Source: Nitrospirota bacterium
GTDB taxonomy: Bacteria; Nitrospirota; Thermodesulfovibrionia; Thermodesulfovibrionales; SM23-35
Length of the DNA stretch: 39,957 nucleotides
Assembly (NCBI GenBank): GCA_014859105.1
Contig: JACUUX010000023.1
Location: 1 to 39,957, forward strand
Direction: 5' to 3'
In this document: positions 7,972 to 10,164 of the stretch, in pieces
Layout of the letters: each line of letters opens with the position of its first letter
Position numbering within the stretch: the stretch's first letter is position 1
Translations under genes and position numbers: made by a program
Notes under the pieces: model-generated
What the model was told of the DNA's origin: nothing
The model's database searches: none
The model's input: only the letters and a program-made list of their open reading frames with translations

Positions 7972-9306
7972 ATGAAGCTATTATTAGTTTCTCCTTGTCG
8001 GGATGAGCATCTCCGCTATCCGCATGCTCTTCGAATACCGCAGATTGCACTCAATATTATTGCATCCCTCACGCCATCACATTACGATGTAAAGATTGTT
8101 GAAGAGGAACTCGAGAAGGTCAATCTTGACGAGGAATGCGATATCGTTGGCATCAGCACAATGACTTCAAATGCTCCAAGAGCCTATCGGATGGCAGCGG
8201 AATTCAGAAAAAGAGGGAGAACCGTCGTGATAGGCGGCGTTCATCCGACTGTCCTACCCGAAGAAGCAATTCACTATACTGACGCCGTCGTGATTGGTGA
8301 GGCAGAGGACACATGGGGAACACTCATCGAGGATTTTGAGCATGGGAATCTGCAAAGGTTTTATGAATCGCATCAGCCTGATGTATCCCATTATCCACTG
8401 CCTCGCCGAGAACTCACACCAAAATCCAGTGGGATATTCAATGTGATGCCGATCGTTACGACGAGAGGTTGTCCGTATGATTGCGAGTTCTGTTGTGTGC
8501 CGAAATTCTTTGGAAGGAAACCTCGATCAGTTCCTGTGGAGAAAGTCGTCAGCGATATTGAGGCATCCAAAGGAAAGAAATTTCTATTCCTTGATGACAA
8601 TATCATTGGTAAGCCGAAATACGCAAAAGAACTTTTCAGGGCTCTTGAGCCGCTCAAGATACGCTGGGTTGGGCAGGCATCTATCTCGTTTGTGAACGAT
8701 ACTGAACTGATGAGACTTGCTGCTCAGAGCGGCTGTGTAGCTTTGTTCTTCGGATTAGAAACAGTTTCAACAAGCGCACTACAGCGGATGAGAAAATCCA
8801 TCAAACAACTCTCAGCGAACGAAGATGCAATCAAAAAAGTGAGAGAGTATGGAATCGTCTTTCATGCATCCATAGTGTTTGGCTTTGATGATGAAGATAA
8901 ATCCATATTTGAAGACACGTTAGAATTCTTAATGAGAAACAAAATCGCAACGGTTTCATTTAATGTCCTGACACCCTATCCTGGTACAAAGATTTATGAT
9001 AGGTTCAAAAAAGAAGGAAGGTTGCTCACGGAAGATTGGAAATACTATGACCACGGCACAGTCGTGTTCAAACCAAAAAACATGACGCCTCAAGAGCTAA
9101 TGGAAGGGCATCTATGGGTAAGAAGGGAATTCTATAAGATAAGTTCCATTGCAAAAAGGTTGAGCGGCGCCTTGTCGCACCCACTGCTTTATACGATGAT
9201 GAACTTTGGATATCGAAAGAACATAAAGGAGGACGTGAAAAAGTTAAGGAATGAGATAGGGAGATTGGAAAGAATGGCAAGAATAGTGTCAGACCTTGAA
9301 ATATGA
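7972..9306 (+). CDS. B12-binding-type radical SAM protein (second copy)
   Basis: 444-residue enzyme with the same plan as the first copy: N-terminal cobalamin-binding-type domain (1-150, with VVIGGVHPTVLPEEAI) and a radical SAM domain with C167, C171 and C174 in TRGCPYDCEFC. The protein ends in a helical, Lys/Arg-rich tail. Ribosome site AGAAAGGATC lies before the ATG. Oddity: the last residues (VSDLE) and stop codon are encoded by the left inverted repeat of a transposon remnant (9286-9625), so the native C-terminus was probably replaced by insertion; the core enzyme is intact. Substrate unknown. Sequence divergence from the first copy suggests different reactions rather than a recent duplication. 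Confidence 0.87.
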   Translation: MKLLLVSPCRDEHLRYPHALRIPQIALNIIASLTPSHYDVKIVEEELEKVNLDEECDIVGISTMTSNAPRAYRMAAEFRKRGRTVVIGGVHPTVLPEEAIHYTDAVVIGEAEDTWGTLIEDFEHGNLQRFYESHQPDVSHYPLPRRELTPKSSGIFNVMPIVTTRGCPYDCEFCCVPKFFGRKPRSVPVEKVVSDIEASKGKKFLFLDDNIIGKPKYAKELFRALEPLKIRWVGQASISFVNDTELMRLAAQSGCVALFFGLETVSTSALQRMRKSIKQLSANEDAIKKVREYGIVFHASIVFGFDDEDKSIFEDTLEFLMRNKIATVSFNVLTPYPGTKIYDRFKKEGRLLTEDWKYYDHGTVVFKPKNMTPQELMEGHLWVRREFYKISSIAKRLSGALSHPLLYTMMNFGYRKNIKEDVKKLRNEIGRLERMARIVSDLEI

Positions 9307-9625
9307 ATCAATTCCCCCTATAAGTTTTGATAATTGCTTGTTGTCTGCCATATCCTTCCTTAATCTGTCAGATGCCTTACTTACTGCACTGAAATGTATT
9401 CCCCCAAACAGCTTACCTATTTCCACATTGCTTAACCCCGAGTATCTCTGCATAAAATATATCGCTGCCTTCCTTGCTCTGTTGTCCTTCACGCCTTTCC
9501 TTTCTCTCATTTCCTCTGCTCGTTATATGATATAAAGCACCTGGAAATTCTATCCTCAAAGGTCTCCCCATATAGAATAATGTACACGAACCATTTCTTA
9601 TTTGTCAATGGTCAAGGTCTGACAC
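9286..9625. mobile_element. 340-bp MITE-like element: internally deleted REP-associated transposon
   Basis: The stretch is bounded by perfect 14-bp inverted repeats: GTGTCAGACCTTGA at 9286-9299 and its complement at 9612-9625. Inside, on the minus strand, are the first ~24 codons and last ~70 codons of a REP-associated tyrosine (Y1/IS200-like) transposase, with the catalytic middle lost. The left repeat encodes the transposase stop on one strand and the last residues of the neighbouring radical SAM protein on the other. No clear target-site duplication is seen. Confidence 0.7.
9289..9571 (-). pseudogene. REP-associated tyrosine transposase, middle deleted
   Basis: ATG at 9571 starts MGRPLRIEFPGALYHITSRG, followed by NERK, the classic N-terminus of Y1-type (RayT) transposases. 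The frame then breaks at about 9490-9505. From there another frame gives KAAIYFMQRYSGLSNVEIG and FGGIHFSAVSKASDRL, the DnaA/TrpR-like helix-turn-helix tail found at the C-terminus of this transposase group, ending FKV-stop at 9289. Full-length relatives are roughly 250-330 residues; the HUH and tyrosine catalytic motifs are all missing. It cannot be active itself, but could be moved in trans by an intact copy elsewhere. Confidence 0.85.
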
Positions 9626-9628
9626 CGG

Positions 9629-9716
9629 AATTCCCCCAATGCAGTTGCTTTCTTCATCTTATGTGGAGCTCCACATAAGATGAAGAAACACCTCGAATTA
9701 TCATGGTGGGGGAATT
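9629..9716. repeat. Perfect 40-bp palindrome inside outer inverted arms
   Basis: Positions 9649-9668 and 9669-9688 are exact reverse complements with no loop (centre GGAGCTCC), a 40-bp perfect palindrome. Outside it, AATTCCCCCA (9629-9638) and TGGGGGAATT (9707-9716) form a second pair of 10-bp arms. The palindrome can form a cruciform or a long hairpin in RNA. It begins just after the transposon remnant. There is no gene between 9626 and 9963. Confidence 0.8.
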
Positions 9717-9880: not shown

Positions 9881-9916
9881 AAGGCCACAAAGACTTTTAG
9901 CTTTGTGGCCTTTTTT
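9881..9916 (+). terminator. Intrinsic terminator in the csp leader
   Basis: A 12-bp perfect stem (AAGGCCACAAAG, 9881-9892, with CTTTGTGGCCTT, 9901-9912), an 8-base loop and a run of T to 9916. It lies 47 bases before the cold-shock gene and no gene precedes it on this strand. A possible promoter (TTGACT at 9817-9822, TACTGT at 9841-9846) lies upstream, so it may end a ~60-nt leader RNA and act as an attenuator. CAGAAGG (9878-9884) can also pair with CCTTCTG (9924-9930) downstream of the T-run. Confidence 0.7.
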
Positions 9917-9963: not shown

Positions 9964-10164
9964 ATGAAACAAGGAACTGTTAAGTGGTTCAACGACAGCA
10001 AAGGTTTTGGCTTCATTACTGCTGAAGACAACAGCGATTTTTTTGTACACCATACGTCTATTCAGGGCAGTGGCTTTAAAAGCCTTGCCGAAGGTGACAA
10101 TGTCAGCTTTGATACAGAACAAGGCCCGAAAGGTCTTAAGGCGATCAATGTGGTTAAACTCTAA
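9964..10164 (+). CDS. Cold-shock domain RNA chaperone
   Basis: 66-residue CspA-family protein, a single OB-fold that binds and melts single-stranded RNA/DNA. RNP1 (KGFGFI, residues 13-18) and RNP2 (DFFVHHTSI, from residue 25) are intact, and the length is standard. A strong ribosome site (AAGGAGG) lies before the ATG. It is preceded by a leader terminator and followed at once by a perfect 16-bp terminator hairpin, so it is probably a monocistronic, post-initiation-controlled gene. It heads a local group of RNA-binding proteins (RRM protein, S21, KhpA). Confidence 0.96.

Follow-up and report, generated by a model that had tools for sequence, protein, structure and literature searches.

The window, the whole stretch of 39,957 nucleotides analysed here, holds at positions 9286 to 9625 what is most probably (about 0.88) an internally deleted TIRYT/TIRtron that inserted at the 3' end of a radical SAM gene, either as an element of ~1 kb or as an already deleted copy. 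In brief, the parent would have been a TIRYT element, a Y1/HUH transposase gene with a short terminal inverted repeat on either side, inserted with the transposase gene pointing towards the radical SAM gene. A single deletion would have taken ~690 bp, the catalytic motifs among them, leaving 24 codons from the N-terminus and 68 from the C-terminus in different frames. As these motifs are gone and the remnants are out of frame, no transposase is made from the window copy. Since neither end is damaged, the copy could in principle be mobilised in trans by a full-length relative present in the same cell. We infer that transposition is of the single-strand, HUH type, which would fit the target-site data: no duplication of fixed length was found among 29 pairs of ends, with at least 3 nt in 3 of them against 0.7 expected.

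Structure of the element

The left terminal inverted repeat, GTGTCAGACCTTGA, lies at 9286 to 9299 on the plus strand, on the 3' side of the transposase, and is placed as in the full-length elements of loci L116, L118, L122 and L126. The right repeat (9612 to 9625, minus strand) lies on the 5' side of the transposase and is a perfect inverted copy of the left. An inverted-repeat scan of the window gave two arms of 14 nt each, 100% complementary and 312 nt apart, in agreement with the perfect 14-bp terminal repeats described in the initial annotation.

Two pieces of a transposase are encoded between the repeats on the minus strand. Codons 1 to 24, MGRPLRIEFPGALYHITSRGNERK, are found by translating 9571 to 9500. 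The last 68 codons and a TGA stop occupy 9495 to 9289, which translates as GVKDN...DSYFKV-stop; this is a DnaA-C-like helix-turn-helix tail, and its stop lies within the terminal repeat. It matches PF08299 with 25.2 bits (E 1.7e-5), below the cut-off of 31.5. The initial annotation had put the remnants at the first ~24 and the last ~70 codons, close to what we found. The deletion joint is at 9496 to 9499 (minus strand). The two pieces stand in different frames with these 4 nt between them, so there is no fusion protein. Positions 1-213 and 215-340 of the window element align to positions 1-213 and 901-1025 of the L116 element (1025 bp). Relative to L116, one block of ~690 bp is absent from the window copy, and the catalytic HUH and tyrosine motifs lie within the missing part.

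Two features lie to the right of the element. A perfect 40-bp palindrome (20-bp arms, no loop, no T-run) is found 23 bp from it at 9649 to 9688, and has weak partial matches only elsewhere in the genome. Further on, 9964 to 10164 looks by eye like a cold-shock-like protein gene preceded by a good ribosome-binding site; upstream, at 9881 to 9912, is a 12-bp inverted repeat.

Relatives in the genome, the order and the phylum

The initial annotation proposed a search of the genome for other copies of the ends and for a full-length transposase, and both were found. The 3.16-Mb genome has three exact matches to the 14-mer of the left end; the window element accounts for two of these, and the reversed control gave none; TGTCAGRYCTTGA occurs at 13 places, against 0 for its control. 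A solo end at C24:645 is near-identical to the right repeat (27 bp, 96%).

The full-length relative in the same genome, on contig C120, encodes a protein of 332 aa with NHYH and YIHLNP, and its stop lies within the end. The element is bounded by GTGTCAGGTCTTGA at 132 to 145 and an inverted copy at 1194 to 1207. These ends contain GGTC, not GACC, and no full-length partner with the GACC form was found among the contigs searched. The protein passes PF01797 (54.3 bits, cut-off 23), falls just under NF047646 (77.8 bits against 80) and is under the 31.5 of PF08299 (24.1 bits, E 3.6e-5). A full-length IS200-type transposase on contig C138 (L001) was rejected by eye as the parent, as it has no RAYT-type start and no such ends.

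The internal sequence of the window element has no second copy in its own genome, and 60 further genomes of the order gave partial matches only when searched for the same deleted form. The description of the element as MITE-like holds for its structure, with inverted ends and no functional transposase; as the internal sequence is single in the genome, we use the term for the shape of the window copy, without implying mobility.

Copies of the ends are present across the order and the phylum. Among 176 genomes of the order, 35 carry GTGTCAGRYCTTGA, with 92 places in all (its control has 4 places, each in a different genome), and 28 carry the sister form GGGGTCAGRYCTTGA (sister end GGGGTCAG), with 122 places (control 0). 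In the phylum, GKGTCAGGTCTTGA was matched in 48 of 198 genomes and its control in 3. Relatives of the 68-aa tail were found in 14 of 121 genomes, its own genome counted.

Some further arrangements were observed. Four contigs break within element ends: C28:4-55 (L010), C79:42850-42901 (L009), C29:1-391 (L003) and C54:54999-55114 (L125), two with 3'-type and two with 5'-type ends. This is as expected from near-identical full-length copies that were not assembled, and suggests that such copies exist. At L009:1453-1555 two 3'-type ends lie in direct orientation, 50 bp apart, within AGTAGTAG-like repeats. The solo repeat GTGTCAGGTCTTGACGGGCTGTTGCCCAAA, with the same outer end and a different inner hairpin, is found at six places (L060, L067, L071, L072, L078 and L131) in five genomes from four families of the order.

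From full elements to palindromes

In the loci that were retrieved we counted 29 different complete elements, of which 8 measure 929-1076 bp and 21 measure 79-340 bp. The 8 full-length elements, one of them in the window's own genome, have transposase frames of 283-339 aa (stop to stop). All 8 have inverted ends. The initial annotation had considered such ends unusual for Y1 transposons, a claim we do not uphold; they are also the rule for TIRYTs in the available text of Di Nocera et al. 2013 (PMC3733652). NHYH and FQ are present in all 8. The tyrosine motif, Y[IV]HLNP or YIELNP by pattern match alone, is found in 3 of the 8 and is deleted in the window.

For at least six of the shorter elements (the window element and those in L282, L290, L297, L298 and L306), the similarity to full-length elements extends past the repeats at both ends. 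The window element shows this with L116, L118 and L122, and is an internal-deletion derivative of a transposase of the REP-associated type, as had been proposed. A derivative of 175-176 bp is found at three places in genome G078 with differing flanks, which indicates that such derivatives can multiply. Further pairs, hand-picked from the phylum list, are all short, 18 of 18 being 48-75 bp long and mostly near-perfect palindromes. An identical 55-bp pair is present in L333, L336 and L343, again with differing flanks. A Y1 transposase match is present in 9 of 11 genomes rich in derivatives and absent from the other two, G077 and G182.

Palindromes of 48-75 bp with GGGTCAGGTCTTGA form populations in G223 and G219 (loci L332-L345 for these two), G182 and G213, and the Y1 transposase match in G223 is broken only. 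G078 has 13 Y1 transposase matches (C99, C139, C57, C191 and others), many with long open frames, beside several deletion derivatives.

Origin of the shortened copy

One course would be decay in place, with a full-length TIRtron inserting here, losing its middle later and never moving in the shortened form. We give this slightly better than even odds. The copy is single in the genome. Its C-terminal remnant has kept an open frame of 68 codons and shares 50-65% identity with the closest relatives, which points to a deletion that may be recent. On the other side, short derivatives elsewhere have multiplied, both the 175-176 bp form at its three places in G078 and the 55-bp pair of L333, L336 and L343.

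Alternatively, a full-length TIRYT may have moved the deleted copy in trans, so that it arrived already short; we regard this as tentative, clearly below even odds. The perfection of both ends and the presence of a full-length relative in the genome argue for it, as do the ends at which contigs C28, C79, C29 and C54 stop, suggesting further unassembled copies. However, we found no second copy and no empty site, and the resident full-length element on C120 has GGTC, not GACC, in its ends.

We think it very improbable that the remnant was kept for a function, its open C-terminal frame (ATG in MRERKGVKDN..) giving a DnaA-C-like DNA-binding peptide that blocks element ends: the 68-codon frame is intact and a promoter-like TTGACA-18-TACATT, a consensus match only, lies upstream at 9579 to 9608 (minus strand) and is directed into the remnant, but such matches are not above shuffles (2 against a mean of 1.3) and no second genome showed a short form preserved in this way.

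The radical SAM gene and the shared stop

The host gene encodes a B12-binding/radical SAM protein of 444 aa at 7972 to 9306 on the plus strand, and its last 6 codons and stop (9286 to 9306) lie inside the element. The left repeat reads as VSDLEI-stop on the plus strand, which ends the radical SAM protein, and as FKV-stop outward on the minus strand, which ends the transposase. The initial annotation had recognised this coding on both strands, with the host end given as VSDLE, and had seen that the element supplies the host's stop codon; the last six codons come with it. The outward stop closes the transposase (..AAGGTCTGA), and a transposase stop TGA inside the repeat is also found in the full-length GTGTCAG-type elements of L118, L122 and L126. 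Inward from the left end of the window copy, host frames are stopped in two of three frames within 21 nt. As the end carries stops both ways, a host gene invaded at its tail often retains a stop.

The nearest radical SAM relative, in L150, is 91% identical in protein and 92.6% identical in DNA over 8218 to 9245. It has neither the element nor VSDLEI and terminates in ..NFRTIEERGLT-stop, so that the outcome named in the initial annotation as a refutation, an orthologue sharing the C-terminus but not the element, was not encountered. The homology stops at 9245, 41 bp ahead of the repeat, and unrelated DNA follows; thus insertion alone is not demonstrable as the maker of the new tail, and no clean empty site was found through this orthologue. 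In more distant orthologues the tails past about residue 428 vary freely. This fits the proposal that the insertion did little harm, the free tail being the only part to change, and we infer that it was tolerated for this reason, but a clean pre-insertion site was not found.

That VSDLEI is the native C-terminus and the repeat match a coincidence is highly unlikely: VSDLE does arise by chance in unrelated genes, with L079, L080 and L082 carrying the GACC 14-mer inside an apparently longer gene, but the closest orthologue ends differently, VSDLEI is absent from all the orthologues aligned, and the repeat belongs to a paired element with transposase remnants.

Ends at the 3' ends of host genes

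For each end we took the stop of the nearest co-directional frame of at least 70 codons and compared its position with 200 random positions per locus. The GTGTCAG set comprises 86 ends out of the 92 places, those too close to a locus edge being left out, and the GGGGTCAG set 88 ends from 70 loci. With frames called mechanically, of which some may be spurious, and a random control that takes no account of how ends may avoid gene interiors, 21 of the 174 ends contain a host-frame stop, against 5.3 expected.

The two sets behave alike. In the GTGTCAG set the stop falls 1-40 nt inside the end in 10 of 86 (2.6 expected, P 3e-4) and at -30 to +40 in 20 of 86 (4.5 expected, P 2e-8). The corresponding counts for the GGGGTCAG set are 11 of 88 (2.7 expected, P 9e-5) and 21 of 88 (4.7 expected, P 7e-9). 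Seven 14-mer matches (L065, L066, L079, L080, L082, L245 and L246) were judged to be chance matches in genes; they are retained in the 86 and excluded from a recount with n=79, which left the counts unchanged, and from the flank composition. Ends in gene interiors are depleted, with 11 of 86 and 5 of 88 where ~20 were expected for each.

Leaving out the window's own, 20 frames stop inside an end, and 10 of the 19 scanned have a Pfam domain. In 9 of these 10 the last domain lacks no more than five profile positions, the exception being SIR2_2 in L064, which indicates that most of the ten hosts are whole proteins whose tails were rewritten. In the 15 bases preceding the ends the purine content is 0.62-0.69, compared to ~0.51 further out, which may reflect target choice or the coding strand.

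On balance we lean towards the view that the one end GKGTCAGGTCTTGA unites a phylum-wide continuum, from autonomous TIRYTs of 0.9-1.1 kb through deleted pairs of 79-340 bp to near-perfect palindromes of 48-75 bp. REP-like hairpins would then arise by successive deletion of TIRYTs, in a subclass in which no REPs were found, and the end would act as a portable cassette of stop codons, through which copies can persist in the tails of host genes. Taken alone, the window copy is an ordinary decayed mobile element. With the full series from element to hairpin, the question of how REP-like repeats arise can be tested within one family, and the enrichment of ends at gene tails shows that the C-termini of ordinary enzymes can be rewritten by the end of a mobile element.

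Comparison with known systems

Classical IS200/IS605 elements have subterminal hairpins at both ends. The ends of the window copy lack such folding, the DNA folds of its two 40-nt ends being no better than shuffles (z 0.28 and -0.54), and this identity was rejected.

Judged by its sequence, the family fits TIRYT/TIRtron and TnpAY1 subclass 2.1, with the window copy as a predicted deleted member. In the available text of Di Nocera et al. 2013 (PMC3733652), TIRYT genes are flanked by inverted repeats, some overlapping a gene 3' end; some of the repeats are dimeric and repeated, and several share GGGGWSAS. Our family has in common with these a Y1 transposase gene between terminal inverted repeats, not GTAG hairpins, repeats that may overlap gene 3' ends, and solo and dimeric repeats. 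The sister end GGGGTCAG fits GGGGWSAS, while the window end AGTGTCAG / GGTGTCAG (GTGTCAG) misses it by one or two bases; the motif is common to some TIRs only in that source and thus not strictly defining. The window copy itself is internally deleted and without catalytic HUH and tyrosine motifs, and is therefore a derivative and not an active TIRYT member.

In the parts of Quentin et al. 2018 (PMC6006769) available, most TIRYTs are assigned to TnpAY1 subclass 2.1, which is Bertels group 1 and has a tail of the Bac_DnaA_C or HTH type. Of the motifs of this subclass, NHYH and FQ are present in all 8 full-length elements of our family, and the pattern for Y[IV]HLNP / YIELNP matched in 3 of them. 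The family also has a Bac_DnaA_C-like C-terminal tail, both PF08299 matches to this tail being under the curated cut-off. In these parts, no REPs are reported for subclass 2.1 and further analysis is called for; here, in contrast, several genomes have short pairs and near-perfect palindromes made of the ends. The family thus bears on a published open question, whether Bac_DnaA_C-tailed Y1 transposases also feed short-repeat populations.

REPINs, or REP doublets (Bertels and Rainey 2011, PMC3116915), are likewise short inverted pairs of transposase ends scattered in genomes, but there is no GTAG here, and the window copy is single and retains transposase remnants. With MITEs it shares inverted ends and the lack of a functional transposase. 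The available definition (PMC3733652) is 70-300 bp with TIRs of 15-30 bp and no coding capacity, whereas the window copy has 340 bp, 14-bp ends and a single copy.

REP termini that supply host stop codons have been reported before, and the window copy adds one more case to a kind of element that is known but little studied. The exact end sequence GTGTCAGGTCTTGA was not found in the literature searched, which included a minority of subscription papers. Relative to the literature examined, the end sequence, its spread in the phylum and the size series down to hairpins are new.
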